Virus record (IMG/VR): IMGVR_UViG_3300037189_020067
Span: 1-40,806 of that record
From: a virus
Length of the DNA stretch: 40,806 bases
Direction: 5' to 3' (one strand)
Under the pieces are notes generated by a model. It made no database searches. It saw only the letters and a program-made list of their open reading frames with translations, and was not told where the DNA came from. The number at the start of each line of letters is the position of its first letter. Within the stretch, counting starts at the first letter, position 1. Position numbers and translations under genes: made by a program. Positions 8,787 to 28,526 of the stretch are shown in pieces.

Positions 8787-8908
8787 CACTGCTTCGATCA
8801 TAAGAAGACTCGACAACAGGCAGCGGGTCGAAAGAGGGGGGAGATGTTTAGGGTTTTCGGAGAATAACAGTGCTTGTTTATTTCAAACTCTAATCTCCTC
8901 AATGCCTG
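8787..8908 (+). promoter_or_regulatory. Structured leader between tRNA and terL
   Basis: Nested pairings enclose this segment: CAGGCA (8817-8822) with TGCCTG (8903-8908), GGAGA (8840-8844) with TCTCC (8894-8898), and TTAGGGTTT (8848-8856) with AAACTCTAA (8885-8893, one wobble). Alternative pairings GCACTG (8786-8791) with CAGTGC (8868-8873) and CGAC/GTCG (8811-8830) would exclude part of that fold. The late motif GGTTTTCGGA lies inside the main stem. It could be a terL leader, a packaging-site element or processing signal for the tRNA. Confidence 0.45.
8852..8861 (+). promoter_or_regulatory. Late-region motif GGTTTTCGGA, copy 1
   Basis: The 10-base core shared with three later copies, 73 bp before the terL start. 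Here the flanks differ (GGG before, GAATAA after), so this is the weakest member of the set. Confidence 0.4.
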
Positions 8909-8924
8909 ATTTACTAATAATAAA

Positions 8925-10223
8925 ATGATAAAACTAAGCGATAAAATCGCACCAATATTTCATCCAGTCCACCGCGCAATTCGCGATAAAACAGCAGATG
9001 AATTTTGGATAAAAGGTGGGCGTAATTCCACCAAATCAAGTTTTGTCGCTTTGCAAATAGTTTTGGGCATCATGCAAGACCCTGACGCTAACGCCGTTTG
9101 TTTTAGAAAAGTCGGGGCTTTTATTAAAGACTCAATTCAAGCAACTATTCTTTGGGCTATTGATGAGCTTGGCGAGACAGAAAACTTTGCATCGATTAAT
9201 TCACCGCACGAAATCACTTATTTGCCGACTGGTCAAAAAATATTACTTCGCGGGTTAGATAAGCCAACAAAAATCAAATCAATTAAACTGCGGCGCGGTT
9301 ATTTTAAATATTTGTGGTTTGAAGAGGCTGACGAATATTCTGGCGATGATGAGATTAGAAGCGTTGAACAATCAGTTTTGCGCGGCGATAAAACTAAAAA
9401 GTTTGTGGAGTTTTTAACTTATAACCCGCCGAAAAATTCTAAGCATTGGATCAATAAATTAGCTGAAGAAAATGTTGATGAAAAATTTATTCATCATTCG
9501 ACCTATTTGGACATTCCGCAAGATTGGTTAAGCGAAAAAACATTGCAAAAGATTAATCGGTTGAAAGAAAATAATTATGAAGCCTACGTTCATGAGTATT
9601 TGGGGAAATGTGTTGGCAACCCCAAAGAGATTATTTTTAGCGGTAAATTTGAAGAAGCTGAATTTGAAACACCGCCTCTTAACGAACTTTACCAAAGCCG
9701 TTTCTTTTTTGGTGCTGATTGGGGGTTTGCCGCAGATCCCTCTGTGCTGATTAGGATGTTCATAAAAGACGATTGCCTTTGGATTGATTACGAAGCTTAT
9801 GCCGCACAAGTTGAAATAGATCACATTGGGCAAGTTATTTTTGACAAAATACCCGAATCAAGAAAGTGGCAAATAAAAGCCGATAATTCCCGACCAGAAA
9901 CAATTAGCAATTTGCGGCGGCAAGGCTTTAATATAAGCGGCGCAAAAAAATGGGGTGGCAGTGTTGAAGAAGGTGTTGAATATATAAAATCTTTTAGAAA
10001 GATTATAATCCACAAACGCTGCCCGAGAATTTTGCGCGAGTTTGAGACTTATAATTACAAGATCGATAAAAACACGCGGGAAGTATTGCCAGTGATTGAC
10101 GATACAAAATCTCGTATTTATGAAAAAGGAGATAAGATTGGCGTTAAAGACGATGGAATTGACGCTTGCAGATATGGATTAGCTGATTACATTCGCGGCG
10201 CAACTGATATAATTGCCTTTTAA
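8925..10223 (+). CDS. terL: Terminase large subunit (PBSX / Terminase_3 type)
   Basis: A 432-residue protein. Walker A is the variant GGRNSTKSS at 31-39, Walker B plus catalytic Glu is YLWFEEADEY at 129-138, and LTYNPP at 164-169 fits the coupling motif III. The C-terminal nuclease domain starts at FFGADWGFAADPS (261-273, Asp265 as metal ligand) and ends with the DDGIDACRYGLADYI motif near 409-423. By family it is the ATP-driven DNA-packaging motor and endonuclease that docks on the portal. The ATG lies about 145 bp after the tRNA and follows the structured leader. Length is normal for the family. Confidence 0.95.
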   Translation: MIKLSDKIAPIFHPVHRAIRDKTADEFWIKGGRNSTKSSFVALQIVLGIMQDPDANAVCFRKVGAFIKDSIQATILWAIDELGETENFASINSPHEITYLPTGQKILLRGLDKPTKIKSIKLRRGYFKYLWFEEADEYSGDDEIRSVEQSVLRGDKTKKFVEFLTYNPPKNSKHWINKLAEENVDEKFIHHSTYLDIPQDWLSEKTLQKINRLKENNYEAYVHEYLGKCVGNPKEIIFSGKFEEAEFETPPLNELYQSRFFFGADWGFAADPSVLIRMFIKDDCLWIDYEAYAAQVEIDHIGQVIFDKIPESRKWQIKADNSRPETISNLRRQGFNISGAKKWGGSVEEGVEYIKSFRKIIIHKRCPRILREFETYNYKIDKNTREVLPVIDDTKSRIYEKGDKIGVKDDGIDACRYGLADYIRGATDIIAF

Positions 10224-10272
10224 CTTTTATGAATTATAAAAATCAATACAATAACTTTTAACTTTTATTTTT

Positions 10273-10377
10273 ATGCTTGAATTTATTCTAATTTTAATTT
10301 TTGTAATTCTGCCAATTTTAGTAACTATTGGATCTTTGCGCGCTGGCTGGATAATTGGTAAAAAGTTGGGGAAATAA
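10273..10377 (+). CDS. Putative 34-residue membrane peptide
   Basis: A 34-codon frame encoding MLEFILILIFVILPILVTIGSLRAGWIIGKKLGK: one long hydrophobic segment (about 3-20) and a basic tail. No ribosome-binding site is visible. Support comes from its context, a run of several small membrane proteins between terL and the portal gene. It may be spurious. Confidence 0.4.
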   Translation: MLEFILILIFVILPILVTIGSLRAGWIIGKKLGK

Positions 10378-10419
10378 TTTTGATTTAAAAAATATGATTA
10401 AAAAACTTAATTTAAAAAA

Positions 10420-10515
10420 ATGTTTATACTAATTCCCTTTTTAATTTCCTTTTTAATTTCCTTTTTAATTTCTTTGCTTTATTGTGTTATAGTTTTAAAA
10501 TATTTCGACGAATGA
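10420..10515 (+). CDS. Putative 31-residue membrane peptide with FLIS repeat
   Basis: Encodes MFILIPFLISFLISFLISLLY and a short polar tail ending KYFDE. The hydrophobic segment is built from three in-frame copies of a 12-bp repeat, each coding FLIS. Its stop codon overlaps the next ATG (ATGA at 10512-10515), which favours a real, coupled gene. Function unknown. Confidence 0.45.
   Translation: MFILIPFLISFLISFLISLLYCVIVLKYFDE
10436..10471 (+). repeat. 12-bp tandem repeat, three copies
   Basis: CCTTTTTAATTT occurs three times without interruption and a partial fourth copy follows. The unit length keeps the reading frame of the small peptide it lies in, each copy adding Phe-Leu-Ile-Ser. Replication slippage would change the membrane segment by four residues at a time. 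Confidence 0.85.
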
Positions 10516-10739
10516 AAAACAAAAAAATATTGGAAGGTGATTATGTAAAAATAATTACCAAAGAAAAACCCTATTATGGTTTTGCCGTAATGTTAAAAAA
10601 TAATTTGTATGTTAAAGGACAGCTTTTATCTGATCTTGAAAAAAAATACAAAATTGTCAAAACAAAATGCAGATTTCAAAAACACAAATTTTTTCTTTTT
10701 AAAAAACTAACCGAAATTTTATCAAATGAACTATTTTAA
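10512..10739 (+). CDS. Hypothetical small basic protein
   Basis: 75 residues from the ATG at 10512 (MKNKKILEGDYVKII), which overlaps the preceding stop as ATGA; an earlier in-frame start at 10482 would add ten residues but lies inside the upstream peptide gene. The first half looks like a small beta-barrel (GDYVKIITKEKPYYGFAVMLKNNLYVKGQLL), the second is lysine-rich. It overlaps the next gene by 14 bp. Family unknown. Confidence 0.6.
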   Translation: MKNKKILEGDYVKIITKEKPYYGFAVMLKNNLYVKGQLLSDLEKKYKIVKTKCRFQKHKFFLFKKLTEILSNELF

Positions 10740-10995
10740 AAATTTCAAACAGAACAGAGAATATTTTGCTTTGGTAAATTATGCTGAATTTTTAGAAGTA
10801 AAAACTGAAATTAATAACGGCGTAATTTTTAGAAGTTATCTTTTCCAAACTAATATTGGGAAATTTGAAAAAAGTTTTCGAATTACTAATGGTCATTTTA
10901 ATTCAATGAATGATAAAGACCTTGCGGAATTTGATAAAAAAAAGATAGAGCTTATAAAAGAAAAATTTCAATTTAAAGAAGTAATTAGAAAGTAA
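10726..10995 (+). CDS. Hypothetical accessory protein
   Basis: 89 residues (MNYFKNFKQNREYFALVNYAEF...), mixed alpha/beta by eye, no motif. It overlaps the gene before by 14 bp and is followed after 2 bp by the next, so the set is one transcription unit inserted between terL and the portal gene. Function not recognisable; typical of accessory cargo. Confidence 0.6.
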   Translation: MNYFKNFKQNREYFALVNYAEFLEVKTEINNGVIFRSYLFQTNIGKFEKSFRITNGHFNSMNDKDLAEFDKKKIELIKEKFQFKEVIRK

Positions 10996-10997
10996 AA

Positions 10998-11285
10998 ATG
11001 ATTAACATACTCGATCTTTTTAGAGAAAAATTTAAATTAAACAGCGAATCGTTTGGTGATATTTTATATGTTAATAAAGCACCTTCTTTTTTTAAAGAAA
11101 ATTATCAAGAAGAAAAATTTTTACTTTTTACAAAAAAAGGAAGTTATGATTTTCAAAAACATTGTCCTTGTGGTGATGATGATTGCTTAGATAATAATCA
11201 AATTATTTTTATAGCAACAGAGCCTCCAACTAATTGGGAAGAAATGGGATTGCCTAATTTTAAAAAAGAATGGCATGAATGTTAA
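10998..11285 (+). CDS. Hypothetical protein with CPCGDDDC metal-binding-like motif
   Basis: 95 residues. The sequence HCPCGDDDCLDNN at about 54-66 puts one His and three Cys within ten positions, a plausible zinc or iron site. The N-terminus is lysine-rich, and the C-terminus has EPPTNWEEMGLPNFKKEWHEC. No family recognised. It belongs to the run of small accessory genes before the portal. Confidence 0.6.
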   Translation: MINILDLFREKFKLNSESFGDILYVNKAPSFFKENYQEEKFLLFTKKGSYDFQKHCPCGDDDCLDNNQIIFIATEPPTNWEEMGLPNFKKEWHEC

Positions 11286-11325
11286 ATCTAAAATTCCAAG
11301 AAAAATTTAATTTAAAAAAATAAAA

Positions 11326-11448
11326 ATGATTAGTATAAATGTAAATTGGTTTATTGATGGTTTTTTATTAGCAGCAATTTATTTTTTTGGTTCGATGTTT
11401 TTTTTGGCGTTTTTTTTCTATATTATGGATTGTTTATTTAAAGAATAG
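11326..11448 (+). CDS. Small membrane protein (40 residues)
   Basis: Encodes MISINVNWFIDGFLLAAIYFFGSMFFLAFFFYIMDCLFKE, nearly all hydrophobic from residue 8 to 35 and phenylalanine-rich. The codons are strongly T-rich, as expected for such composition. Its TAG at 11446 is 3 bp before the next start. No Shine-Dalgarno sequence, but gene packing supports it. Function unknown. Confidence 0.5.
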   Translation: MISINVNWFIDGFLLAAIYFFGSMFFLAFFFYIMDCLFKE

Positions 11449-11451
11449 AAA

Positions 11452-11727
11452 ATGTTTAAAATTTTTAGAAAATCAAAACCAATACATGAGCAAGTTCTTT
11501 TGTTTGCAAGCACTTTACTTCCCGATGAAAAAATAATTGTTTCAATAAGAGATTTTTACGAAATACTTAGGTGTAGAGATAAATATGGCTATCCAATAGT
11601 GAGTTATTGCCAAAAAGAATTTTACATATTAAATATTCAACTTGAACGCGAAACAATAAATAACTTCCCCCGAGCTGAATTTGGCGATAAAAGAACCAAC
11701 CGCAATTTTGAATTAAAAGATGTTTAA
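11452..11727 (+). CDS. Hypothetical accessory protein
   Basis: 91 residues (MFKIFRKSKPIHEQVLLFASTLLPDEKIIVSIRDFYEILRCRDKYGYPIV...). It contains two cysteines and a basic N-terminus, with no recognised motif. It overlaps the following membrane-protein gene by 8 bp. Part of the terL-portal accessory run. Confidence 0.6.
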   Translation: MFKIFRKSKPIHEQVLLFASTLLPDEKIIVSIRDFYEILRCRDKYGYPIVSYCQKEFYILNIQLERETINNFPRAEFGDKRTNRNFELKDV

Positions 11728-11887
11728 AAACCTTTCACCATTAAAAATCTTACAAATAGCTCTTTTAATTCAAATCTTGATTTTAGTTTTTGCTTTGCCC
11801 TTTTTGCCAAGCTACTTTGTTTTTTTTAAAGTAATCGCCACAATAGCGATTTCGATGATATTAAGCTATTTTATCAATAATGTTTAG
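11720..11887 (+). CDS. Small two-pass membrane protein
   Basis: 55 residues with two hydrophobic segments (about 10-27, ILQIALLIQILILVFALPF, and 30-50, SYFVFFKVIATIAISMILSYF) separated by a Pro-Ser turn. The gene overlaps its upstream neighbour by 8 bp and the portal gene by 8 bp, tying it to the late operon. It resembles holin-like or exclusion peptides in layout only. Function unknown. Confidence 0.6.
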   Translation: MFKNLSPLKILQIALLIQILILVFALPFLPSYFVFFKVIATIAISMILSYFINNV

Positions 11888-13262
11888 CAAAATCTTTAAG
11901 CCAGAAGAACTTAAAAGCTACGGCGAGACTAGGTTAAGCTTATTGCAGCTATTAAGCGGTAATTATGAGTACAAAAATAGCCCTACGGAGTTTTTAAACT
12001 ACTACACTGAAGCTTGTCCAGTCTTTACCGCGACAAAGATGATCGCTGATGCTGGTTCGTCAATTAAGCTAGTAATAAAAGATCGCAAAAAAGACGAATT
12101 TATTTACAGTCACCCTTTTCTTGAGCGGTTAAAAAATCCAAATCCATTTGTTGACGGCGAATTATTGTTAAAAGAAGTGATTAGCTATTACTTGCTCACT
12201 GGCAACAACTATTTAAATGTGGTTCAAAGTCTAAATAAAAAAGATGTTATAGAACTAAATGTTTTTGCGCCAAACAAAATTACAATTCAGAAAAATCAAA
12301 ATGACGGCTATGCTGGCGAATATAGTTACACAAACGGCAATCAAAATTTAGTCTACACAAGAAATGAGCAAAAGAAATTTATTGATAAAATTGGAAATGA
12401 ATTAATTCATCTTCGGGATTTTAACCCCAATTTTTCTTCCGACAATTTAGTTGGCTCTTCTGCCTTTTTAGGCTGCCAATTAGAGATAAGCCAGTACGTT
12501 GCCGCAAGTGTTCACAATAATTCCTTACTTAAAAATCAAGCGCGCCCAAGCGGGCTTTTGACTTACAAAGGGAATGATCCGCTGATGGATAATCAAGTTG
12601 CTAAAATTCGTGAAATGATCGATAATAAAATGTCTGGCACAAGCAACACTGGCAAACCTGCTTTCTTAAACGGAAATTTTGAATGGAAACAGCTTTCCGA
12701 GTCAATCAAAGATATGGACTTTCCAACACTTAAAAAAATGGTTGCTGAATCCATTTACAATGCTGTCAAAATACCCTTGCCGATGGTAAGTCCCGATAAC
12801 ATGAGCTTTGCTAATATGGATGCGGCAAAATATGCTTTTTATGACAATGCGGTGCTGCCAGTGGTTAGTAGAATTTTAAAATTCTTCACTAAAAATATTT
12901 TAAGCAAATACGCTGGCTCTGAAAATTTAGAGCTTACATTTGATCCATGTTCAATTGATGCTCTTGAGTCACGCAAAGTTGACAATGCGCTGACAATCTC
13001 AAAAAGTGGTGTTTTAGCCATAAATGAAATTAGGGCGAGGCTTGGCTACGAATCAATCGATAATGGCGACTCTGTTTATCAACCAGCTAATCTTTTGCCA
13101 GTTGGTGTTGATAAATACACAATTGATAACCGCGAATCGCCAGCTTCTAAATCAGATAAAGCCGAATATATCCGCCTAATGAGTTCTATGAAAACAATTG
13201 ATGGCAAAAGGCTTTATACTGACGATGTAATTAAAAAGCAGCTTGAAGCTTTTTATGAGTAG
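11880..13262 (+). CDS. Phage portal protein (HK97 family)
   Basis: A 460-residue protein with the HK97-type portal order: NSPTEFLNYYTEACPVFTATKMIADAGSSIKLVI near the N-terminus, HPFLERLKNPNPFVDGELLLKEVISYYLLTGNNYLNVV (about 81-118), the clip/stem region with LNVFAPNKITIQ, and the C-terminal LGYESIDNGDSVYQPANLLPVG typical of the family. By family it forms the dodecameric ring through which DNA enters and leaves and on which the terminase docks. It follows the accessory run and precedes the MuF-like gene, the usual order. Full length. Confidence 0.92.
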   Translation: MFSKIFKPEELKSYGETRLSLLQLLSGNYEYKNSPTEFLNYYTEACPVFTATKMIADAGSSIKLVIKDRKKDEFIYSHPFLERLKNPNPFVDGELLLKEVISYYLLTGNNYLNVVQSLNKKDVIELNVFAPNKITIQKNQNDGYAGEYSYTNGNQNLVYTRNEQKKFIDKIGNELIHLRDFNPNFSSDNLVGSSAFLGCQLEISQYVAASVHNNSLLKNQARPSGLLTYKGNDPLMDNQVAKIREMIDNKMSGTSNTGKPAFLNGNFEWKQLSESIKDMDFPTLKKMVAESIYNAVKIPLPMVSPDNMSFANMDAAKYAFYDNAVLPVVSRILKFFTKNILSKYAGSENLELTFDPCSIDALESRKVDNALTISKSGVLAINEIRARLGYESIDNGDSVYQPANLLPVGVDKYTIDNRESPASKSDKAEYIRLMSSMKTIDGKRLYTDDVIKKQLEAFYE

Positions 13263-14115
13263 AAAAGACGCGCAAAAAATTGATCTCGAGAAATTAAGAA
13301 TTGAAGCCACAATTACGCCAAAATTTAAAACAATTTTCAATAACATTGCGCGCGATGCCGAAAGGCTTTATAAAACAACTGGGAAACTTCCATCGCAAGA
13401 ATTAGCGCAGAATTATTATCCTGAATTTGTCAAAGAAATTCGCGATGCAATGCGTAAAACAATTAAATTCTTTGGGTTCGATTTAAGAAAGGCTCTTGAA
13501 TTAAAAGGTTTTAATTTTGACGCAGAATTTAAAAGTGGATTTATTGATTTAGAAAAAAAACTAAAAATCATTGATGAAAATTTAGATCCAAAACTTGAAG
13601 ATATTAATAATGAATTTTTAAGAAATGCGACTTTATTCATTGCTAATCAAAGCGAAGTACAGGCTGATTATATCACGCAAACAAACGCAAAAGAATTGGC
13701 ACTAGCGGCTTTACAAGAAGAAACAGCTTATTTATCAAATCAAAAAGCAAATGAGATTTGGGCTATTATTGCTAAGAATCTGTTTATAAATCTTTTAGAC
13801 AGAAGGGACGGCAGGGTTGATTTAATTTCAAGCCAAGTGGTAGGGCTTGCTGAAGCTTGGAGTCGTCAAGAAGAGGCGCGCTTGATTAATCAAGCTGAAT
13901 TACAATCGCAAAACAAACCCGTAAGAGTTTTAAAAACTTGGTGGGCAATTTTAGACTCAAAGACTCGCGCCAGTCATGTCGAAGCAGACCAACAGCAAGT
14001 TGGCGTGGATGAGTTATTCTATGTCGGTGGTGCTTCTGCTATGTACCCAAGAGATCCTAATTTGCCAGCCAGTGAGTCGATTAATTGTAGGTGTGTAAGT
14101 GTTAATTCTGTTTAA
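13255..14115 (+). CDS. Minor head protein, MuF-like
   Basis: 286 residues from the ATG at 13255 (MSRKDAQKIDLEKL); an upstream in-frame start at 13243 would add four residues within the portal gene. The N-terminal two thirds are helical. The C-terminal MuF domain is clear: KTWWAILDSKTRASHVEADQ, F-YVGGASAMYPRDPNLPASESINCRC with the closing NCRC at about 277-280. By family it is a head-morphogenesis protein packaged near the portal. It overlaps the portal gene by 8 bp and converges with the minus-strand block (14-bp overlap). Confidence 0.88.
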   Translation: MSRKDAQKIDLEKLRIEATITPKFKTIFNNIARDAERLYKTTGKLPSQELAQNYYPEFVKEIRDAMRKTIKFFGFDLRKALELKGFNFDAEFKSGFIDLEKKLKIIDENLDPKLEDINNEFLRNATLFIANQSEVQADYITQTNAKELALAALQEETAYLSNQKANEIWAIIAKNLFINLLDRRDGRVDLISSQVVGLAEAWSRQEEARLINQAELQSQNKPVRVLKTWWAILDSKTRASHVEADQQQVGVDELFYVGGASAMYPRDPNLPASESINCRCVSVNSV

Positions 14116-14961: not shown

Positions 14962-14997
14962 TTTTTTTTATTTTTTAATTCTAGTAATCAAAAAGTT

Positions 14998-15564
14998 TTA
15001 TACTGTAATAGTTTCATAATCATCAGGAACTGCTGGAGGAGCTTTTTGTTGTTTTAAAATCTCTACAATTTGAGCTTCACCAGATGTCCACACATTCATT
15101 TGAACAGTCAAATCAATAGCTTCTTTAACTGATTTCCCAAGGTGCATAGCCATATAAGACTCTTTAAATCCAGCTCCATCAGTTGCAAAATCATTTTCTA
15201 AAATTTCTTGAACCGCTCCACTTCGATAATGAAATAATTTTTTTTCAAAAACTAAAAAATAATGGTTATCAACTTTGCCATTTGGTTCAATGTTTTGTTC
15301 TTTTAGCCATTTTCCAAAGTCAATGAAAAATCTTTGGATTCCTAGTTGATCGCTTCTCTCGGGCTTTCTAGTTTGACAAAATAACGCAAAATTGACTTGT
15401 TCAGAATATGAACCTGTTGAGGAAAAAACAACGTCATTAACCTGCGCAATTTTTTGCTGCATTTGATGATTGCTGCAATGAAATTTATGATTGTCCATAA
15501 ATAACCCCGTGTCAGCTCCAAGAATTATTTTATCTTTTGTGTTTTGTGCTATTAATACCGTCAT
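14998..15564 (-). CDS. HslV/proteasome-like Ntn hydrolase
   Basis: 188 residues starting MTVLIAQ. With Met removed, Thr1 is the N-terminus, Asp17 falls in IILGADTGL exactly as in proteasome beta subunits, and the following KIAQV supplies a lysine at 37 where HslV has Lys33. VVFSSTGSYSEQ matches the oxyanion-Gly region, and DFATDGAGFKESYMAMHLGKSVKEAIDLTVQMNVWTSGEAQIVEI matches the HslV 'GSGG..A' helix and AV..A helix plus the last strand. GAGG lies 7 bases before the ATG. It should be an N-terminal-threonine peptidase or relative. No ATPase partner is in the window. It overlaps its upstream neighbour by 4 bp. Substrate unknown. Confidence 0.78.
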   Translation of the reverse strand: MTVLIAQNTKDKIILGADTGLFMDNHKFHCSNHQMQQKIAQVNDVVFSSTGSYSEQVNFALFCQTRKPERSDQLGIQRFFIDFGKWLKEQNIEPNGKVDNHYFLVFEKKLFHYRSGAVQEILENDFATDGAGFKESYMAMHLGKSVKEAIDLTVQMNVWTSGEAQIVEILKQQKAPPAVPDDYETITV

Positions 15565-15851
15565 TTTATAACCTCATTTTTAAATTCTTGTCTCAATTGC
15601 TCTAAAGTTCTCACATCCTCGTCTTTTATCTTTCCCATAAGTCGCGCAATTACCAAATCTTTATGTAATGAGTTCCAAACGCGTGTAGGAACGCCGTAAT
15701 GGTTCCAATCATGACACATGCTTTTACAATATGGCAAAGATGCGCTAAATCTCAAAACCTCCCCGTTATAAGGCAATGCGTTTTTATGTTTTTTGATGAT
15801 CCATTTAAGAAGATCGTAATCGCCGCTAAATTTAATGTTAAATAAGTCCAT
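15561..15851 (-). CDS. Hypothetical protein encoded ahead of the Ntn hydrolase
   Basis: 96 residues (MDLFNIKFSGDYDLLKWIIKKHKNALPYNGEV...), including YCKSMCHDWNHYG (C-x3-C plus His) in the middle and a helical charged C-terminus. It overlaps the Ntn hydrolase start by an ATGA, so the two are co-translated and may be partners. It is the promoter-proximal gene of the minus-strand block; its start is 10 bp from the late motif at 15861. Family unknown. Confidence 0.65.
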   Translation of the reverse strand: MDLFNIKFSGDYDLLKWIIKKHKNALPYNGEVLRFSASLPYCKSMCHDWNHYGVPTRVWNSLHKDLVIARLMGKIKDEDVRTLEQLRQEFKNEVIK

Positions 15852-15860
15852 TTTTTAAAA

Positions 15861-15876
15861 TCTTGGTTTTCGGATT
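15861..15876 (+). promoter_or_regulatory. Late-region motif TCTTGGTTTTCGGATT, copy 2
   Basis: This 16-base sequence recurs identically at 21110 and 28511. It lies between the diverging minus-strand block and the prohead protease gene. The core is 70 bp before the internal protease ATG at 15935 and 40 bp before the ATG at 15905. Likely a promoter or activator site restarting rightward transcription. Confidence 0.6.
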
Positions 15877-15904
15877 GGCGATTTTTAGCCACAAATTTAT
15901 TTAG

Positions 15905-16612
15905 ATGCAAACATTTTTAATAAAATTTTTGCAAATGCAACAAAAAATAAAAGAAACCAAGAGGTTTTCGTTTGAAATTAAAGCGATGTCCGAAGAAGAC
16001 AATAATTTTATCTTTGAAGGCTACGCGTCAACTTTTGGCAATGTCGATTTAGGCGAAGATGTTATTGCTGCTGGCGCGTTTACCAAAACTTTAATTGAAA
16101 CGCCAAATGTTCCAATTTTATGGCAACATGAAATGGATGAACCAATTGGAATTTCTATCACCTTAAGGGAAGATGCTAAGGGCTTATTTGTTCAAGCTAA
16201 ATTGCCAAAAGATGATACTCAAGTGAGTGGAAAAGTAATTCCACAAATGCGGATTGGATCAGTTAGAGAGATGTCAATAGGCTATTTTGCCATTAATTGC
16301 GAATACCAAGATGAAATCAGAATTATCAAAGAAATTGAACTCTTTGAGATCTCTCTAGTTACCAAAGCCATGAATCCGAAGGCTTTAATCACTGGCTTCA
16401 AATCTCTTGAGTCGCTAAGCGATGTCGAAAAATCACTCAAAGAAAGAGGGTTCTCAAATACCGAGGCTAAAACCCTAATTTCTAAAATCAAAGAATTTTC
16501 CAATCAGCGTGACGCTGAAGAAATAAAGTCTCTGCGCGATGCCGAGCAAAAAGCCAAGTTGCTGGCTGGAATAAGCGACTTAACAAACTTTATTAAATCA
16601 AAAAAACAATAA
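15905..16612 (+). CDS. HK97-type prohead protease (peptidase S78)
   Basis: 235 residues from 15905. The S78 fold is clear: NFIFEGYASTFGNVDLGEDVIAAGAF, catalytic His75 in ILWQHEMDEPIG, Ser124 in REMSIGY, and the acidic member in IELFEISLVTKAMNP (Glu145/148). It matures the capsid by removing the scaffold domain. Neither candidate start has a Shine-Dalgarno sequence. The ATG at 15935 (MQQKIKETKRFSFEIKA) gives the more usual N-terminus and fits the 63-73 bp spacing from the late motif, so the protein may be 225 residues. The C-terminal tail (after ~165) is charged and helical. Confidence 0.92.
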   Translation: MQTFLIKFLQMQQKIKETKRFSFEIKAMSEEDNNFIFEGYASTFGNVDLGEDVIAAGAFTKTLIETPNVPILWQHEMDEPIGISITLREDAKGLFVQAKLPKDDTQVSGKVIPQMRIGSVREMSIGYFAINCEYQDEIRIIKEIELFEISLVTKAMNPKALITGFKSLESLSDVEKSLKERGFSNTEAKTLISKIKEFSNQRDAEEIKSLRDAEQKAKLLAGISDLTNFIKSKKQ

Positions 16613-16613
16613 T

Positions 16614-20032: not shown

Positions 20033-21109
20033 ATGAAAGCTATTGATGTTGTAAATAGACTAAAAGAAATTTTACCAAGTTTTACAGATGATTTTAGTGA
20101 TATTAAAAGCATTTCTTCTTTGACACGATCAGGCGGCACGATTACAGCAACGACATCAAGCGCGCATAATTTAGCAACTGGAAATTACGTTACAATCAGA
20201 GGGGCGAAAAAACCAATCACTTTAGTTTCTTTGACTCGCGTAGGGAATATTGTAACTGCCACATCTTCAACCGATCACGAATTATCCGACCCCTCTTTAT
20301 TTTCTTTAGAAAATTTGCCGCTTTATGTTGAAATTGCTGGCGCAAGCACTGGCTACAATGGCGATTTTGAATTGTTAAGCGTTCCAACAAGCTATACTTT
20401 TACTTTTAAAATTACAACAACACCAACAACACCAGCAGCAGTGGCAGGCTATCTTTTACTTGAAGATCAAGCTGGTTACAATGGATACAAGCAAATCACA
20501 GTAACTTCGGCAACTCAATTTACTTATGCAACTTCAAGTTCAACCCTTAACTCACCAGCGCAAGGCACAATTGAATTAAGTAGTGGCACACGCATTGATT
20601 ATGCGGCAACTGCTGAAAGGATTTCAGATTTTTATTCCGCAAATTTTAATAAAATTTTGAAGCCTTGGATGTTTGTTGTATTGAACGCAAAATCAACTTA
20701 CAAAAACGAAACAATTGCAAGCAATATTTCATCTGCTCAAAATAAAAACGAGTCTTTTCATTATGAGGCGCAGCAAGATTTTTCAATTTATATTTTTTTA
20801 TCAAGCAAAAATAGCGTGTTAGGTGGCGAGCAATCAGATACAGCGCGCTCTTATGAAAAACCAATTTTAAAAAGTATTGCCAACCACATTTTTGATTCAA
20901 ATTTAGTTGAACGAACTTATCAACCATGCGCCTACGCGGGCAGTGAACCCGATGATTATGTTGCTGCTTATTATGTCCACCGATTTGATTTTCTAGTTAA
21001 AGGATTTGTGCAATCAGGCGATACTATTGATTTTGACAATGGAACTCCTCTTAAAATAATCAATGGAACTTTTGATAAGGGCTTAATTTTCAAACCTAAT
21101 TTACGTTAG
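20033..21109 (+). CDS. Tail terminator-like protein (Mu gp37 position) with nested beta-module insertion
   Basis: 358 residues. By position and by the segments 1-25 (MKAIDVVNRLKEILPSFTDDF) and ~190-358 (ERISDFYSANFNKILKPWMFVVLNAK... FLVKGFV) it corresponds to Mu gp37, the tail-terminator/completion protein, whose family is usually under 200 residues. Residues 29-181 are inserted. They form a beta-module (SLTRSGGTITATTSSAHNLA ... VTIRGA and later AGYNGYKQITVTSATQFTYA) that is itself interrupted at 59-145 by a second copy (SLTRVGNIVTATSSTDHEL ... STGYNGDFELL). The same module occurs in the gp47-like protein. The tail-terminator assignment is partly positional. Confidence 0.65.
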   Translation: MKAIDVVNRLKEILPSFTDDFSDIKSISSLTRSGGTITATTSSAHNLATGNYVTIRGAKKPITLVSLTRVGNIVTATSSTDHELSDPSLFSLENLPLYVEIAGASTGYNGDFELLSVPTSYTFTFKITTTPTTPAAVAGYLLLEDQAGYNGYKQITVTSATQFTYATSSSTLNSPAQGTIELSSGTRIDYAATAERISDFYSANFNKILKPWMFVVLNAKSTYKNETIASNISSAQNKNESFHYEAQQDFSIYIFLSSKNSVLGGEQSDTARSYEKPILKSIANHIFDSNLVERTYQPCAYAGSEPDDYVAAYYVHRFDFLVKGFVQSGDTIDFDNGTPLKIINGTFDKGLIFKPNLR

Positions 21110-21125
21110 TCTTGGTTTTCGGATT
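21110..21125 (+). promoter_or_regulatory. Late-region motif TCTTGGTTTTCGGATT, copy 3
   Basis: Identical to the copies at 15861 and 28511. It begins 1 bp after the stop of the tail-terminator gene; the core is 67 bp before the gp38-like start. Because both flanking genes run rightward here, this copy argues that the motif serves rightward expression. TTTAAAAAAT follows about 26 bp on and also occurs after copy 4. Confidence 0.6.
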
Positions 21126-21180
21126 TTTGTTTTTGTTTTTAAAAAATATTTTGATTTCAACATTTAATTAAATTCTGTTT

Positions 21181-21366
21181 ATGAAATTAAAACTAAATCA
21201 AAATCTTTCCACGCCACAAGGCAAGCTGCTTAAAGATGCAATTATTGAAATTGCCGCAGATAAAAATTCAATCCCTTTAGATTTGTTTTGGCGCAGTCGT
21301 TTGCTTGATTCAGTTATTGACAATTGCGTTGAAATAGTTTCTGAAACCTTAAAATCAAAAAAATAA
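21181..21366 (+). CDS. Mu gp38-like small tail protein (DUF2635)
   Basis: 61 residues. The LDLFWRSRLLDSVIDNCVEIV block matches the FWRRRL signature of DUF2635, the small protein encoded directly before the sheath in Mu-like phages. Role in Mu tails is undefined. It begins 71 bp after the third late motif and ends 1 bp before the sheath start. Confidence 0.75.
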   Translation: MKLKLNQNLSTPQGKLLKDAIIEIAADKNSIPLDLFWRSRLLDSVIDNCVEIVSETLKSKK

Positions 21367-21367
21367 C

Positions 21368-22921
21368 ATGGCTGCTGCATTTCCAAACGTGACTACTAAC
21401 ATTCTTTCAGCTAAAACCCCGCAAAGCGTTGATGCTCGATCAATTCTAATCGTCGGTGGAATGGTTTCAGGCACTGCTTCAAGTGGTGCTTTAGTTGATA
21501 ATTTACTTTCTACGGCAGAATTTAACGCTGCATTCGGAAGAACTTCGCATATTGCAAGAGCTGGTCGCGCTTTAATCGAGCAACTTTCGATTTCAAGAAT
21601 TAGACCAAAAGTTTCTGCAATTGGATTGACTGACAACGGAAGTGGAGTTGCCGCAACTGGAATTGTTGCTTTTACTGGAACCGCAACTGAAGCTGGCACA
21701 ATTACAGTTTATGTCGACTCAATTCGCAATGGTGCTTACAAAATTAATGTTGCCAGTGGCGCAACCGCTGCTTCTCTTGGAACTTTACTTGAAACCGCAA
21801 TCAATGCAAATTTAGATAGACCAGTAAACGCAGTAAATACTAGCGGTAGTGTTGGTTTAACTGCAATAAACAAAGGCGCAATTGGAAATTCAATAGGCTT
21901 AAAATATTCAGGTTCTGTCGCTGGAATTACAACCACTATTACAGCTTTTGCAAATGGTGCAACTAATCCAACTTTGACAGCGGTATTTGACGCAATTGCA
22001 AGCACTCGTTATTCAACAATAATCTTTCCAGCAGAATGGGGCGTTTCTACTTTAACAACTGAAACCGAAGCTAAATTCAATGTTGACAATAAAATTGTTC
22101 ACGAATTTGGCATTGTTTGTAAAAATGATACTTACGCCAATATCAATACCGCTTTAGATGCTCTAAATCAAAAAACACTCGGCTATATTCCAAATAAGCT
22201 GATTTCAGGAACTGCTCACAAAGGCGGTGCTATATTTGAGAACCCGATTGTTATTGCCGCCTATGCTGCTGCGTTACGTGAATTAAGACTTACAGTAAAT
22301 TCAAACGTATCTTCAATCACAACTAACGGGCAATCATTAGGCGGTTCTTTCTTCGCTGCAATTCCTTATCACAATACGCCATTTAGCCTATTGCCAATTA
22401 TTGAAACTGGGAATGATTTTTCTGATGCTGAAGCTTTAGAGTTGCAAAATTCTGGTGGCTGGGTGCTTAGAAATAATCCTGCAAATACTGTGATTATTTC
22501 AAATGAAGCGGTAACAACTTATAAAACTAACACGCTTGGAAACGCAGACACAACTTTCAAATACATCAATTATTTTGACACTTTAACCTTAACCGCTGAA
22601 TTTTTCTTTAATAATACAAAAGCTGATTTTTCTCAACATATTTTGACAACTGGACAATTAATTGCTGGTCGCCCGATGGTTAATAAAGAAGGATTTATCG
22701 CTGCTTTGATGGGTTATTATGCCATACTTTCGGGCATCAATGGCAATAACAATTATTGTTTATTAAGAGCTGGCACGGATCAGCAAGCAGCTTTCAAAAA
22801 AGCTTTGACTGATTCGGTAGTTATTAATCTTTCAACTGGAACTTTAACAGCCGAAGCAATTGCGAATATTACAACTCAAGTAAGAAATATTTTAGTTAAT
22901 TTTACCCCAACTTTTGAATAA
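21368..22921 (+). CDS. Contractile tail sheath protein (Mu gpL-like)
   Basis: 517 residues. The N-terminus MAAAFPNVTTNILSAKTPQSVDARSILIVGGMVSGTASSGAL, the GRTSHIARAGRALIEQ block, a Gly/Ala-rich beta insertion (about 95-200), and the C-terminal domain with FFNNTKADFSQHILTTGQLIAGRPMVNKEGFIAALM and VRNILVNFTPTFE follow Mu-type sheath proteins. It forms the contracting outer tube. This gene makes the phage a myovirus-type particle. Length is normal for Mu-like sheaths. Confidence 0.93.
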   Translation: MAAAFPNVTTNILSAKTPQSVDARSILIVGGMVSGTASSGALVDNLLSTAEFNAAFGRTSHIARAGRALIEQLSISRIRPKVSAIGLTDNGSGVAATGIVAFTGTATEAGTITVYVDSIRNGAYKINVASGATAASLGTLLETAINANLDRPVNAVNTSGSVGLTAINKGAIGNSIGLKYSGSVAGITTTITAFANGATNPTLTAVFDAIASTRYSTIIFPAEWGVSTLTTETEAKFNVDNKIVHEFGIVCKNDTYANINTALDALNQKTLGYIPNKLISGTAHKGGAIFENPIVIAAYAAALRELRLTVNSNVSSITTNGQSLGGSFFAAIPYHNTPFSLLPIIETGNDFSDAEALELQNSGGWVLRNNPANTVIISNEAVTTYKTNTLGNADTTFKYINYFDTLTLTAEFFFNNTKADFSQHILTTGQLIAGRPMVNKEGFIAALMGYYAILSGINGNNNYCLLRAGTDQQAAFKKALTDSVVINLSTGTLTAEAIANITTQVRNILVNFTPTFE

Positions 22922-22926
22922 AACAT

Positions 22927-23271: not shown

Positions 23272-23283
23272 TTTTTTTAAAAT

Positions 23284-23748
23284 ATGGACTCTTTAACTTT
23301 TGATTTATCAAAGCCAATTAAAGTTCAACTGAATGTTGATGGCAAGAATGATTTTGTTGATATTGATAAAATCTATTTTTCTGCACCAAGCTACAAACAT
23401 CGTGATTTGACAATTGGTTTAAAAAAGAAATTTATTGAAGCCGTATTTGCAATGACCGCTTCCCTTCCAAAAGATGAAGCACAAAAGCAAGTGAATGATG
23501 ACAATGGCAAATTAGACGCAAAATCAATTAAAGCCATTCTATACGCAGCTAAAGACTTTGATATTGTTTCTTTTTTTAAAAAGTTTGAAGCGTTTTTAAT
23601 TTCTGAAATTGCTTTTAAAGATGAAGAAAAAAAGCAAAAACTTGTCGCATTAGATATACAAAAGCTTGATGAATCTGATTTTGAGGAGCTATTGGCTAAA
23701 TATTTAGAGGTTTTTTTTATTGTTTCTTGGATGAAAACTCTAAGTTAG
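23284..23748 (+). CDS. Tail assembly chaperone, zero-frame product
   Basis: 154 residues, in the position of Mu gp41 between the tube and tape-measure genes. It opens with a beta segment (IKVQLNVDGKNDFVDIDKIYFSAPSYKHRD) and continues with helices, as in phage tail assembly chaperones. Near its end a run of eight T (23711-23718) in the frame GTT TTT TTT ATT provides a slippery site. Ribosomes that do not shift stop at 23746. By family it coats the tape measure during assembly. Confidence 0.82.
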   Translation: MDSLTFDLSKPIKVQLNVDGKNDFVDIDKIYFSAPSYKHRDLTIGLKKKFIEAVFAMTASLPKDEAQKQVNDDNGKLDAKSIKAILYAAKDFDIVSFFKKFEAFLISEIAFKDEEKKQKLVALDIQKLDESDFEELLAKYLEVFFIVSWMKTLS

Positions 23749-23891
23749 AATCTTTGGTTTGTAATTTAGCTCTTTTCTACAAAGGCGCGGCAAGTTTTGA
23801 ATGGTTAGAAAGCTTGCCAATTCCAAAGCTTTTAAGACTTAATGAAGAAGCAAGTAAAATCAACGAAGCAATGAAATCAAAAGAGAAATAA
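23712..23891 (+). CDS. Minus-one frameshift extension of the tail chaperone
   Basis: After T TTT TTT (23712-23718) a -1 slip continues as YCFLDENSKLESLVCNLALF... to the TAA at 23889-23891, giving a fused product of about 202 residues. The extension has no credible start of its own, fills the whole gap up to the tape-measure gene (2 bp left), and is helical and charged (LRLNEEASKINEAMKSKEK). Frameshifted chaperone pairs are a conserved feature of long-tailed phages. The shift itself is inferred from frame and slippery run. Confidence 0.82.
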   Translation, partial: FFYCFLDENSKLESLVCNLALFYKGAASFEWLESLPIPKLLRLNEEASKINEAMKSKEK

Positions 23892-23893
23892 AG

Positions 23894-25357
23894 ATGTTTC
23901 AAATAAAATATGTCTATGATTTAGTTGATAAAATCAGCCCTAAACTCAAAACAATCCAAACTAATTTAAAAGCTACAGCTGACAAGGTTACTGATAATGG
24001 AGCTGTAATGGCGAAAGGCTTTGACAAAATGGTCAGTAGTTTAAATAAAACGGGAAATTCTTTAAAAAGCGCAAGTTTTAATTTAGCCCCGATTTCTGTT
24101 GCAATGGGTGGTTTAGGCATAAAAGCTTTATCTTCTTCTGCTAATATGGAAACCTTAGCAATTCAATTAGAAATACTTACTGGCTCGGCAGAAAAAGGAA
24201 AAAAATTATTTTCTGATCTTAACCAATACGCAGCTGCAACTCCCTTTCAATTACCTGAAATAGTCAAATCAACAAGAACATTGCTAGGCTCAAATATAGC
24301 TTTAGAAAAGGCTACATCTACAATTGAAATGCTTGGTGATGTTTCTGCTGGTTCTGGAGGTGATTTGCAAAGTTTAGCTGTAGTTTTCGGGCAAGTTGCT
24401 GGAATGACTAGATTACAAGGTCAGGATGCAATGCAATTCATTTCAAATGGGATACCTATTTGGGCTTTGCTTGAAAAATCAACTGGAAAGACTGTTAAAA
24501 CTTTAAGAGATATGGGCAGTAAGGGGCAAATATCTTTTAAAATGGTTGAGGATGCTTTAACAAAAGCGACATTAGCTGGCGGGATGTATTATCAGGCTAC
24601 GGAAAAATTATCTACATCGCTTTCAGGACTCTACTCTACTTTAAAAGATCAGGTAAATCTTGCTTTCGCAGAACTTGGCAATGAAATGGTTAAGGCTGTT
24701 GATATTAAAAAACTAATCAAAGACTTAGGTGAATTTGCTGGGAAGTTAACCTCTTATTTTAAATCTTTATCTCCTGAAACTAAAAAATTTATCACTTATG
24801 CAGTAATTTTGGGCGGAGTCCTAGCTCCTGTTTTAGCGACAATTGGTTTTATGTCAATTGGAATAGCTGCGCTTGCAACTTCTTTTAGTTTTTTAAATAG
24901 AATTATTCTGGCAAATCCAATTATTGCTTTTATTGCTGCAATGGTTTTACTTTATAATACTTGGGATGATTTTAGAATTGTAGTAGATTGGGTTGCTGAA
25001 TCTATAGTTGGAATTTTTACTACTGAATGGACTGCTCCATTTATTAACGCTTTAAAAGATGCTTGGGAATGGCTTGATAAAATTTTAGAAAAAACAAAAC
25101 CTCTTAGCAATTTTTTTTCTAATGCAAAATTAATTATTAGCACAGGAGCAGATGCTATTAATACGAAATTAGATGAAAAAGCTGGAATAGTTAGAGATAG
25201 CTTTTCAGCAAATATCAACCAACAACAACAATTAATTGCTGGTGGTCAAATGGACATCAACATTAAAGGGTTGCCAAAAGGTTCAAATTCAAACTTCACT
25301 CCTGCGCCTAAAAGCTTTATGAATATTGGAGTCAATTCAGTTTATGCAGGTGGCTAA
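23894..25357 (+). CDS. Tail tape measure protein
   Basis: 487 residues. Residues about 80-250 contain the tape-measure domain: ANMETLAIQLEILTGSAEKGKKLFSDLNQYAAATPFQLPEIVKSTRTLLG, MLGDVSAGSGGDLQSLAVVFGQVAGMTRLQGQDAMQFISNGIPIW, and KMVEDALTKAT. Two hydrophobic segments follow (about 299-330 and 338-356), as is common for proteins ejected into the membrane. At about 0.15 nm per residue the tail would be near 70 nm, rather short (inference). The start is 2 bp after the chaperone extension; its TAA overlaps the next ATG. Confidence 0.93.
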   Translation: MFQIKYVYDLVDKISPKLKTIQTNLKATADKVTDNGAVMAKGFDKMVSSLNKTGNSLKSASFNLAPISVAMGGLGIKALSSSANMETLAIQLEILTGSAEKGKKLFSDLNQYAAATPFQLPEIVKSTRTLLGSNIALEKATSTIEMLGDVSAGSGGDLQSLAVVFGQVAGMTRLQGQDAMQFISNGIPIWALLEKSTGKTVKTLRDMGSKGQISFKMVEDALTKATLAGGMYYQATEKLSTSLSGLYSTLKDQVNLAFAELGNEMVKAVDIKKLIKDLGEFAGKLTSYFKSLSPETKKFITYAVILGGVLAPVLATIGFMSIGIAALATSFSFLNRIILANPIIAFIAAMVLLYNTWDDFRIVVDWVAESIVGIFTTEWTAPFINALKDAWEWLDKILEKTKPLSNFFSNAKLIISTGADAINTKLDEKAGIVRDSFSANINQQQQLIAGGQMDINIKGLPKGSNSNFTPAPKSFMNIGVNSVYAGG

Positions 25358-26550
25358 TGACAATTTTTAACATTGCTAGATTACCAACCGCAAGTTTTAA
25401 AGGCGTTGAATTTGCCTATCAAGACACAAGCGTTGATGGTGGCCGCAAAACAATTTCTCATGAATATCCAAACCGCAAAGAGCGTTACGTTGAAGACTTA
25501 GGGGGAATTGAAAAGAAATTCTCAATAACTGCATTGACTGACAACAACGTTTCTTTTGACGACAGAGATGCTTTAATTGAAGTCTTGGAGAGTTCGGGTA
25601 TTGGCACTTTAATTCATCCTACTTTTGGCTCGCAAAGCGTTGTTTGTGTTGGCTATAATGTAAGCGATAATGTCAACGAGCTTGGCATTTCTAAATTTAC
25701 TTTAAATTTTGAGGTTGCTTCTTTAAATATTTTGCCTTTCAAGCTAGACGGTAACAAAGGCTTTTTAGCTAATTTAAAAAGCAAAATTCTTGGTAAAAAT
25801 GAAGCTGTTTTTGATAAAGAATGGAAAAATGTTGTTAAAGCCAAAGCAAAATTTGATTCTGCAGTCAAAACAACAAAGCAGGTTGCAAATCAAATAAATC
25901 GAGCTTCAAGATTAGTGCAAGGTGCTGCTGATTCAATTGGCGACGCAACGACTGCATTAAATCAAATTGTAAATTCTGCTAATTCTTTAGTTCAAAGTCC
26001 GTCAAAATTGGCAGCTAATTTAAGAGCCTCTTTTAATAATCTTTCTGTAGGCTACAATTCGGCAAAAGATGTTTTTGTTGTTATGTCAAATCTTTTTGGC
26101 TTCGACCAAAGAGACCGCGTTTCAAATGGCAATTCTCAATTGCAGCAAGATATAAAATCAAACCAAGACCAGCTAAACAATTTTGTAAATGCTGCGGCGA
26201 TGGCGATTGCTTACAATGCTGCGGCAAATATTGATTATGCAACTTTGCAAGATTTAAATTCTGTAAATTTAAAACTAGAAGCTGGCTTTGCTACGCTTCC
26301 CTCAAATTTAGATAAAGATATTTACCAACTTCTTTTAGATATGCGGGTTGAAGCGACCAATATTTTTTCGCAATTGTCAATTAGCTTGCCAAACATAATC
26401 GACTACGAACAAATCAACCCAATTTCTTTAAATAATTTAGTTTATTCTTTTTACGGATCACTTGATTTAAAAGAAAATATCCGCCAGCTAAATCAATTTG
26501 GCGACACGAGCCGCATTCAAGGCAATATCAAACTTTTAAGCAATGTCTGA
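25357..26550 (+). CDS. Tail/DNA-circularisation protein (Mu gpN-like)
   Basis: 397 residues. The N-terminal 130 residues (LPTASFKGVEFAYQDTSVDGGRKTISHEYPNRKERYVEDLGG... FSITALTDNNVSFDDRDALIEVLESSGIGTLIHPTFGSQSVVCVGYNVSDN) are the DNA-circularisation N-terminal domain of Mu gpN and relatives, now viewed as a baseplate/tail-tip hub component despite the name. The remainder is helical and Asn/Ser-rich. It overlaps the tape measure by one base and the gpP-like gene by 8 bp. Confidence 0.9.
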   Translation: MTIFNIARLPTASFKGVEFAYQDTSVDGGRKTISHEYPNRKERYVEDLGGIEKKFSITALTDNNVSFDDRDALIEVLESSGIGTLIHPTFGSQSVVCVGYNVSDNVNELGISKFTLNFEVASLNILPFKLDGNKGFLANLKSKILGKNEAVFDKEWKNVVKAKAKFDSAVKTTKQVANQINRASRLVQGAADSIGDATTALNQIVNSANSLVQSPSKLAANLRASFNNLSVGYNSAKDVFVVMSNLFGFDQRDRVSNGNSQLQQDIKSNQDQLNNFVNAAAMAIAYNAAANIDYATLQDLNSVNLKLEAGFATLPSNLDKDIYQLLLDMRVEATNIFSQLSISLPNIIDYEQINPISLNNLVYSFYGSLDLKENIRQLNQFGDTSRIQGNIKLLSNV

Positions 26551-27649
26551 TTTAACTTTAGAAGTAAACGGCATAAAATACCAAGGATTTACTGATGCTT
26601 TGGTGAATAGATCTGTTGAAAATCTTGCAAGTCAATTTTCATTTTCAACAACAATCAAAGATTCTTTTGATTTTATGTCGGGAGTTTTTGGCAAAATTCA
26701 AAATGATTTAAAAGCTCAAGATTTTGTTAAAATTCTTATTGATGATAATTCTGTTATGTCTGGTTTCATTGAAGATTTAGACATAAGCTATTCTTCAAGT
26801 AGTCACTCAATTTCAGTTTCGGGTCGAGATAAAACTGGTGATTTAATTGATAGTTCGATAATTCCAAAGCAATATTTCCAACGTAATTTTGTTCGGCTTT
26901 TAGAGACTGTTTTAAGTGATAATGGGCATTCAATCGCCGTTATTAATGACGTTGCTGATTTAAGCACTTTAGGCGCAAAAGAAGTAATTACCGCAGAAAA
27001 GGGCGACACAATCGCCGCTTTTATGGATAGATACGCCAAAAAATTACAAGTTCTTCTGGTTACAAATGCAGATGGTGATTTAGTAATTACCCGCGAAGGC
27101 AGTGATTTAGCTGTTGGTCGATTAGTTCAAGAAATTAATGGTAATAATAACAATATTCTTTCGGCTTCAATTAATATAAGCACCACAGAGCGTTACAGAT
27201 TTTTTGAGATTTACTCTTCAAAGGGTAATGATGATTTTATTGCTCAAACTGTTGGGCAAAGCGGAATAGCAATTGATAGTTCAATTAGAGCGACCAGAAG
27301 AAAGCGGGTAAATATGTCGGCTGATACGGAATCAGTATCTTTAAAAAATCTAGCTAAGTGGTATGTCAATATAAGGCGCGCGAAAGGCTCCCGCTATAAT
27401 TGCCGCGTTCAAGGTTTTTATACGAATAGAAATAGTGGCTTGCTTTGGCAGCCAAACACTTTGGTTCAAGTTAAAGATGAATTATGTCAAGTAAGTGGAC
27501 AATTCTTAATTCAGGGAGTTTCTTTTGTTAAAAATTTGCAAGGCTGCTTTACTGATTTGTCAATTGTAGAACAGGGCGCATTTTCAATTGAAGGCGCAAA
27601 TATTGCTGATGGAAGCAGCTTTGCAACTGATTTAATTGCTAAGCCTTAA
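26543..27649 (+). CDS. Baseplate hub protein (Mu gpP-like)
   Basis: 368 residues. Features of the gpD/gpP hub family are visible: the N-terminal LTLEVNGIKYQGFTDALVNRSVENLASQFSFSTTIKD, then FVKILIDDNSVMSGFIEDLDISYSSSSHSISVSGRDKTGDLIDSS, the LysM-like AEKGDTIAAFMDRYAKKLQVLLVTNADGDLVI, and the C-terminal W-x-PNTLVQVKDELCQVSGQFLIQGV. It forms the trimeric hub to which the spike attaches. It is convergent with the minus-strand pair that follows (4-bp overlap). Confidence 0.92.
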   Translation: MSDLTLEVNGIKYQGFTDALVNRSVENLASQFSFSTTIKDSFDFMSGVFGKIQNDLKAQDFVKILIDDNSVMSGFIEDLDISYSSSSHSISVSGRDKTGDLIDSSIIPKQYFQRNFVRLLETVLSDNGHSIAVINDVADLSTLGAKEVITAEKGDTIAAFMDRYAKKLQVLLVTNADGDLVITREGSDLAVGRLVQEINGNNNNILSASINISTTERYRFFEIYSSKGNDDFIAQTVGQSGIAIDSSIRATRRKRVNMSADTESVSLKNLAKWYVNIRRAKGSRYNCRVQGFYTNRNSGLLWQPNTLVQVKDELCQVSGQFLIQGVSFVKNLQGCFTDLSIVEQGAFSIEGANIADGSSFATDLIAKP

Positions 27650-27975
27650 TTAGCTGCCATATTTATATTTAATTCCATTAATTTTGCTTTCTTAATATGT
27701 CTGATATTCTTTTCATTTTCTTCTTCATCAACAAGAAACGCAAATCCTAATTTTAAATCATTTTTAAAGTCTATTTTGATTTTATCTTCTTGATATTCTA
27801 TTTCCTCAAAATATGCACCAATTTTATCGCTATATACTTTACACTTACCAATAACCTCGCCCCAATTTAATCTTACTGGCAAGAATTTATCTTCTATTTC
27901 AAAGCAATCTTTTTCAAAAACATCGCTGTCTTGCTCATTGTAAGGTTGGTTATATTTTATAAAATAAATTTTCAT
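27646..27975 (-). CDS. Hypothetical protein next to the inverted spike gene
   Basis: 109 residues, acidic (EQDSDVFEKDCFEIEDKF, EEIEYQEDKIKID, DEEENEKNIRH), beta-alpha by eye. It lies 23 bp downstream of the spike gene on the same strand, so it may be co-transcribed with it. No resemblance to Mu baseplate proteins is evident. It may be an accessory gene that came with the inversion. Confidence 0.65.
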   Translation of the reverse strand: MKIYFIKYNQPYNEQDSDVFEKDCFEIEDKFLPVRLNWGEVIGKCKVYSDKIGAYFEEIEYQEDKIKIDFKNDLKLGFAFLVDEEENEKNIRHIKKAKLMELNINMAAN

Positions 27976-27998
27976 TTTATTTTTTGTTATTTTGTGTT

Positions 27999-28505
27999 TT
28001 AAGGTGCAATAAATCCATGCGCTCTCATAGCTATTAAAATTAAATCAACAACTGCATGAAGTTGATTTAATCCAGCTAATGGATTAGCAATTGCTGGTTG
28101 CTGTTCTTTTAAAACTTGCACTCCATTAACTTTATAAACTCCACTTGTATTGATATTGCCAACTGCATTAATCAGGCCAGAAAAAAGAGCCGAACTGCAA
28201 CTTATTTCAATATCACCATTTTTCTTAAAAGTAATTTTATTTCCAGCAGCAAAATTACCAACTGCTTTTTCGCCAGCTTCTAAAATTGGCTGAAGCAAAG
28301 GATTATATGGCACGGCAAAGGCACTTGTTTTGCTACCTTGTGGATAAAAAAGTGCAACTAGACTTCCTTTGTCAATTATTGGATTGCTGGCATCACCATA
28401 TGGATGCAAGATTAAAATATTATCTAAAATCTCACCTTCAAAAGTCTTTACCTTACATCTAAGCCCGCCGTTGCTTATGCTTAGAAGTTGCGCTTTGCTA
28501 ATCAT
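27999..28505 (-). CDS. Baseplate spike / gpV-type protein (Mu gp45-like), inverted
   Basis: 168 residues. An N-terminal OB-fold-like part (ISNGGLRCKVKTFEGEILDNILILHPYGDASNPIIDKGSLVALFYPQGSKTSAFAVPY), then AAGNKITFKKNGDIEISCSSAL, a triple-helix-type segment (INAVGNINTSGVYKVNGVQVL), matches Mu gp45, the membrane-piercing spike. In Mu-like phages this gene is co-directional between gpP and gp46; here it keeps that place but lies on the minus strand. Its ATG is 5 bp from the late motif copy 4. The C-terminus (LHAVVDLILIAMRAHGFIAP) is helical, not the usual His-rich metal tip. Confidence 0.85.
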   Translation of the reverse strand: MISKAQLLSISNGGLRCKVKTFEGEILDNILILHPYGDASNPIIDKGSLVALFYPQGSKTSAFAVPYNPLLQPILEAGEKAVGNFAAGNKITFKKNGDIEISCSSALFSGLINAVGNINTSGVYKVNGVQVLKEQQPAIANPLAGLNQLHAVVDLILIAMRAHGFIAP

Positions 28506-28510
28506 AAAAA

Positions 28511-28526
28511 TCTTGGTTTTCGGATT
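28511..28526 (+). promoter_or_regulatory. Late-region motif TCTTGGTTTTCGGATT, copy 4
   Basis: Identical to the copies at 15861 and 21110, and with copy 2 it shares four more bases on the left (AAAATCTTGG). It lies between the inverted spike gene and the gp46-like gene, with the core 63 bp before the latter's start. As at 15861, it stands exactly where rightward transcription must resume after a minus-strand block. Confidence 0.62.

Follow-up and report, generated by a model that had tools for sequence, protein, structure and literature searches.

The late operons of an uncultivated phage start with a recurrent, asymmetric element that is probably the binding site of a phage-encoded activator of late transcription, the putative 96-residue regulator p96. 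The window analysed here is the whole 40,806-nucleotide stretch of IMG/VR record IMGVR_UViG_3300037189_020067. A sequence-only reading of this DNA had seen in the repeat a late promoter or a site for an activator or antiterminator. Comparison with related contigs supports a late promoter or activator site, through its position at operon starts, the concerted change of a 4-bp core and a -10 hexamer at a fixed distance, but neither the copy placed before terL nor the view of the element as one fixed sequence was sustained.

The 16-mer TCTTGGTTTTCGGATT is found exactly as first reported, at 15861-15876, 21110-21125 and 28511-28526, all on the plus strand. It is the only 16-mer with at least three occurrences in the window, and a search of both strands with up to 2 mismatches gave no further copy there. 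A first-order Markov model predicts 5.6e-5 exact occurrences over both strands, against the 3 seen, and chance recurrence is indeed negligible. The minus-strand blocks described ahead of 15861 and 28511 are real, and TTTAAAAAAT does follow the copies at 21110 and 28511, where it runs into the inferred -10 hexamers TATTTT and TACTTT. The proposed spacing of 63-73 bp to a start codon holds for these three sites, given that the protease starts at an internal ATG (15935), a start which is supported by the inferred -10 at 15898, but 8852 does not belong to the set. A weaker copy, overlooked in that reading, lies 107 bp ahead of the portal start codon (AATCTTGATTTTAGTTTTTG at 11773). The close relative G001 (contig IMGVR_UViG_3300011116_001170) has a weak portal copy too, and TACTTT stands there at the offset seen in the gp46 copy. 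These features are listed in the table below.

Table. Elements, inferred promoter parts and associated genes in the window
Feature	Coordinates	Strand	Basis or remark
tRNA-Thr (TGT)	8706-8780		just before terL
Isolated 10-mer match before terL	8852..8861	+	judged outside the system
Weak, possible fourth copy before portal, AATCTTGATTTTAGTTTTTG	11773..11792	+	core unlike other copies
Inferred -10 TACTTT, possible portal promoter	11813..11818	+	G001 orthologue, gp46-copy offset
Portal gene, heads a late operon	11880..13262	+	PHROGs portal
p96, 96-aa helix-turn-helix protein, proposed recogniser/activator	15561..15851	-	co-occurrence, model, helix-core correspondence
p96 codons 41-51, hypervariable, over predicted recognition helix (residues 45-52)	15699..15731	-	
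Putative late element, protease/capsid operon, AATCTTGGTTTTCGGATTGG	15859..15878	+	contains 16-mer 15861-15876
Inferred -10 TATTTA, protease promoter	15898..15903	+	offset 39 from element start
Head maturation protease, heads capsid operon	15935..16612	+	internal ATG start; PHROGs
Putative late element, 61-aa gene and tail sheath operon, AGTCTTGGTTTTCGGATTTT	21108..21127	+	
Inferred -10 TATTTT, sheath-operon promoter	21147..21152	+	TANNNT offset analysis
61-aa gene, heads sheath operon	21181..21366	+	conserved in relatives
Tail sheath, after 61-aa gene	21368-22921	+	PHROGs tail sheath (21368-22918)
Putative late element, gp46-like/gp47-like baseplate operon, AATCTTGGTTTTCGGATTTT	28509..28528	+	
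Inferred -10 TACTTT, gp46 promoter	28549..28554	+	TANNNT offset analysis
gp46-like baseplate wedge gene, heads baseplate operon	28578..29018	+	PHROGs

The site proposed at 8852, ahead of terL, was rejected as a copy of the element. The 10-base core is present (such a match is expected 0.07 times by chance), but it shares nothing beyond the 10-mer with the 16-mer copies, and it lies inside about 135 bp (about 8785-8918) between tRNA-Thr and terL that are missing from G001, where a terL 97% identical to that of the window directly follows the tRNA. None of the relatives carries an element ahead of terL. The insertion itself is partly purine-rich, and an Rfam search of the window matched the tRNA alone.

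Searches with the sheath and gp47 proteins gave about 80 viral-contig loci, and 20 full records were read. In an alignment of 54 to 58 copies the element takes the form AATC[AT]T[AG][GT]TTTT(T)-NNNN-TTG. In the relatives it precedes the same operons (portal, protease/capsid, 61-aa gene/sheath and gp46), with 2-4 clear sites per contig at operon starts, always oriented in the direction of the late genes and usually 46-77 bp from the start codon. Three 16-mers stand at orthologous places in G001, and strong portal copies occur in G002, G004, G005, G008, G013 and G017. Scanning viral contigs with the bare 16-mer returned mostly single copies on contigs without shown kinship, and only those in G001 and L027 could be tied to the window phage; a scan with the capsid protein recovered one close relative only, because the head genes have diverged.

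The site is thus recurrent, as first proposed, but the sequence is not fixed: each phage has its own core within a constant frame. The core is GGAT (preceded by C) in the window and G001, AGAT in G002 and G008 (AGCT at the portal), AGGG in G006, CACA in G016 and G017 and TGTC in G003, while G005 has a shorter variant of the element with TTTACCTA. Copies within a genome agree, with a mean of 0.88 mismatches over the 4 core positions vs 2.78 after permutation (0 of 5000 permutations), and the agreeing copies lie kilobases apart. Gene conversion seems an unlikely source of these concerted cores because the flanks are not shared. In a looser clade (G004, G010, G011 and G013) cores differ between sites (TTTA, TATA, TGTA, TCTA, TGCC), and they also differ in L204 (TAAT vs ATAT).

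The distance between the element and a -10-like hexamer is fixed. In a non-redundant set of 44 promoters, TANNNT stands at offset 39/40 from the element start in 22, vs about 6.5 expected; this is the only peak, and 0 of 1000 shuffles reach it (the protease hexamer TATTTA ends in A and falls outside the count). With the -10 taken as -12 to -7, the element covers about -51 to -32 and its TTG falls at the -35 position with a spacer of 16-17 bp. The -35 is degenerate, often with TTG alone left. At least one relative (L076), which lacks both the element and p96, carries TTGACA ahead of three of these genes, and in L062, L069 and L074 it is found at one of those places each. We infer that the element promoters are sigma-70 promoters turned activator-dependent. 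They look like host sigma-70 promoters in which a damaged -35 would be replaced by an activator, with no phage sigma factor required, and Pfam and PHROGs searches for sigma domains gave no match for p96 or the early window proteins scanned.

A recognising regulator had been postulated, and a candidate is encoded in the window itself, beside the 15861 site, on the strength of its co-occurrence with the element and of a helix-core correspondence. p96 is divergent from the protease gene and starts 10 bp from this site. Its family is always present where an element-bearing contig extends over the head region (12 of 12), and it occurs on 0 of 5 element-less contigs, an absence confirmed by profile search. 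When the genes of the window and five long relatives were compared, it was the only non-structural family with that pattern; other gene matches that show it look like shadow open reading frames lying opposite structural genes. We gathered p96 homologues at 37 loci on viral contigs and on one Rickettsiales metagenome-assembled contig. Convincing matches to p96 were found neither in Pfam, PHROGs or PDB nor among 50,697 phage records; the Mor/C Pfam family matched none of 8 members, the Ogr/delta zinc-binding Pfam family did not match p96, and a PDB sequence search returned two chance-level matches only. Structure models (pLDDT 80 for the window protein, 90 for a relative) predict five helices, in a pattern that fits a two-helix helix-turn-helix unit inside a helical bundle; the predicted recognition helix spans residues 45-52 in the window protein and 41-48 in the L190 protein as translated. 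A fold search of PDB and BFVD gave weak matches, none significant, including a restriction-modification controller (Z 3.6), a phage repressor and a phage Cro.

The Rickettsiales contig (L204, JALREU010000017.1, 17.8 kb, in a metagenome-assembled genome) is the only host-genome match of p96. It points only tentatively to a Rickettsiales host, as the contig may be a binning guest, and p96 is missing from the other 342 Rickettsiales genomes searched. A common host repeat was likewise rejected as the source of the element, this sole host-genome match being a contig that bears phage genes.

The predicted recognition helix changes with the core. Pairs of phages with the same core are on average 96% identical in p96 residues 41-51, whereas those with at least two core differences average 34% in this stretch while the rest of p96 is 70-96% identical. 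Within the clade L190/L192/L196/L198, 10 of 12 stretch positions vary vs 18 of 70 elsewhere (Fisher p 2e-4). The 12 codons of the stretch differ by 13.8 nonsynonymous changes between L190 (core CCCG) and L198 (core AGGG), and the remaining 70 codons by 3.0; between L190 and L188, which have the same core, the stretch has 0. The diverged homologues L203 and L209 each accompany their own diverged elements. An exception is the pair L192 and L198, one core base apart yet 36% identical in the stretch. When the rest of the protein was controlled for in partial Mantel tests, the helix correlated with the whole element (r 0.45, p 0.012) but only weakly and not significantly with the core (r 0.11, p 0.15); the contigs are related, so that counts are not independent and the correspondence values are not strict probabilities.

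Put together, these observations suggest a late-control circuit. The promoters would be of the host sigma-70 type, with a -10 but without a proper -35. Bound to the element at about -51 to -32, p96 would touch RNA polymerase where the -35 lies, in a class-II-like geometry, and would turn on four operons (portal, protease/capsid, sheath and gp46) in concert. It is from promoter geometry alone that activation, rather than repression, is proposed. The left half of the element, AATC[AT]T[AG][GT]TTTT, would be read by slowly changing parts of p96 and the 4-bp core by the recognition helix, so that helix and site copies would change together between phages. Because an element sits at the start of p96 itself, the protein may also regulate its own expression.

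Late activation by small phage proteins is already known; this case would stand apart by its unclassified family and the probable, unusual lock-and-key diversification. The late activator C of phage Mu contacts the beta-prime subunit, and P2 Ogr and P4 delta are small zinc-binding late activators that act at a dyad site near -55. Like Ogr and delta, p96 is a small phage protein associated with several late operons and repeated sites upstream of apparent sigma-70 promoters, but it is predicted to be a helix-turn-helix protein, and its asymmetric site borders on the -35. Mu C is a small activator that serves four late promoters (lys, I, P and mom), where its site overlaps the -35 or lies upstream of it (PMC4461284). 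The likeness to the window phage extends to a small phage-encoded candidate activator, about four late promoters and a site at the -35, and the tail of this phage is Mu-like (its gp47 matches Mu gp47 at about 30%); unlike Mu C, however, p96 has no Mor/C Pfam match, the site is asymmetric and the specificity differs between close relatives.

For the co-diversification, the closest parallel comes from the stoperators of Cluster A mycobacteriophages, a system in which the repressor and the stoperator consensus diverge together between related phages (PMC6550527) and the repressor binds an asymmetric site as a monomer (PMC9283540). In both systems the sites are asymmetric, scattered through the genome and mostly in one orientation, and they diverge together with the protein. 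Stoperators, however, serve repressors and number about 20-30, mostly away from promoters, while the sites of the window phage are about four and all mark the start of a late operon; its geometry is activator-like and p96 has fewer than 100 residues in most members. A search of the open-access literature for co-evolving late activators gave no match.

This parallel bears on the main rival reading, in which p96 would recognise the element but keep the late operons off, either as a silencer or as an immunity-like repressor that has its own private operators. Repressors and operators that co-diversify at asymmetric, oriented sites have their precedent in Cluster A (PMC6550527, PMC9283540), and the element overlaps or abuts the start of p96 as the operator of an autoregulated repressor would. 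We nevertheless consider repression unlikely: the sites stand at late and not early operons, only about four occur per genome, inspection by eye of those early regions that were read showed no evident integrase, and a degenerate -35, where an element-less relative has TTGACA, suits an activator-dependent promoter.

Recognition of the element by another phage factor (a sigma factor, an antiterminator or a DNA-binding protein), with p96 merely travelling with the head genes, appears quite improbable, since the predicted recognition helix of p96 tracks the core and the rest of the protein does not. Many contigs are fragments in which an early-region regulator could be missed, and small putative DNA-binding early proteins are indeed encoded in the window (1608-1796 and 3330-3548, both minus) and in G001 (11581-11838, minus), but these window genes are found in none of the other element-bearing contigs. 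Two of the three proteins have an RGR[KP]P-type stretch, and all three are possible other regulators.

Alternatively, the element could mark a recombination module boundary or act as a signal in RNA, with no part in a promoter. It does stand where the head, tail and baseplate modules begin, and at the sheath site it comes immediately after stop codons. This reading is very improbable, however, because the -10 at a fixed offset places the element upstream of the transcript, the element varies together with a predicted helix-turn-helix protein, and core differences between phages would hinder exchange at a boundary. A chance repeat, of which the isolated 10-mer at 8852 is a case, is hardly credible for the three 16-mers and is refuted for them by the expectation (about 6e-5), their conserved position and the concerted change in relatives.

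The assignment of the element to p96 gives a plausible function to a protein family that is unclassified in the curated families searched, and a testable late-control circuit to uncultivated phages. The homologues and their sites make up a natural set of protein/DNA pairs, with a common scaffold but differing helices and 4-bp cores, from which a recognition code could be read out. The concerted change of activator and sites also raises the question of what drives so rapid a turnover of late-control specificity. One tentative answer is a private late-promoter code, in which helix and sites might switch together under selection for specificities that do not cross-react, making close relatives separate late-transcription groups; such selection could come, for example, from escape from hijacking by co-infecting phages or satellites.

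Several contigs show further features around these loci. L209, which has a G003-type element (core TGTC), carries two tandem p96 homologues (L209:7658-8273, about 37% and 48% identical to that of the window), a duplicated regulator. Directly downstream of p96 in the window and on the same strand lies a gene for an HslV-family (proteasome-like) peptidase (14998-15564, minus), whose relatives adjoin p96 in several contigs. Finally, the gene in the place of Mu gp45 (window 27999-28505, minus), presumed structural, is oriented opposite to the late genes, and many relatives have its start codon within the element (the CAT of AATCAT).
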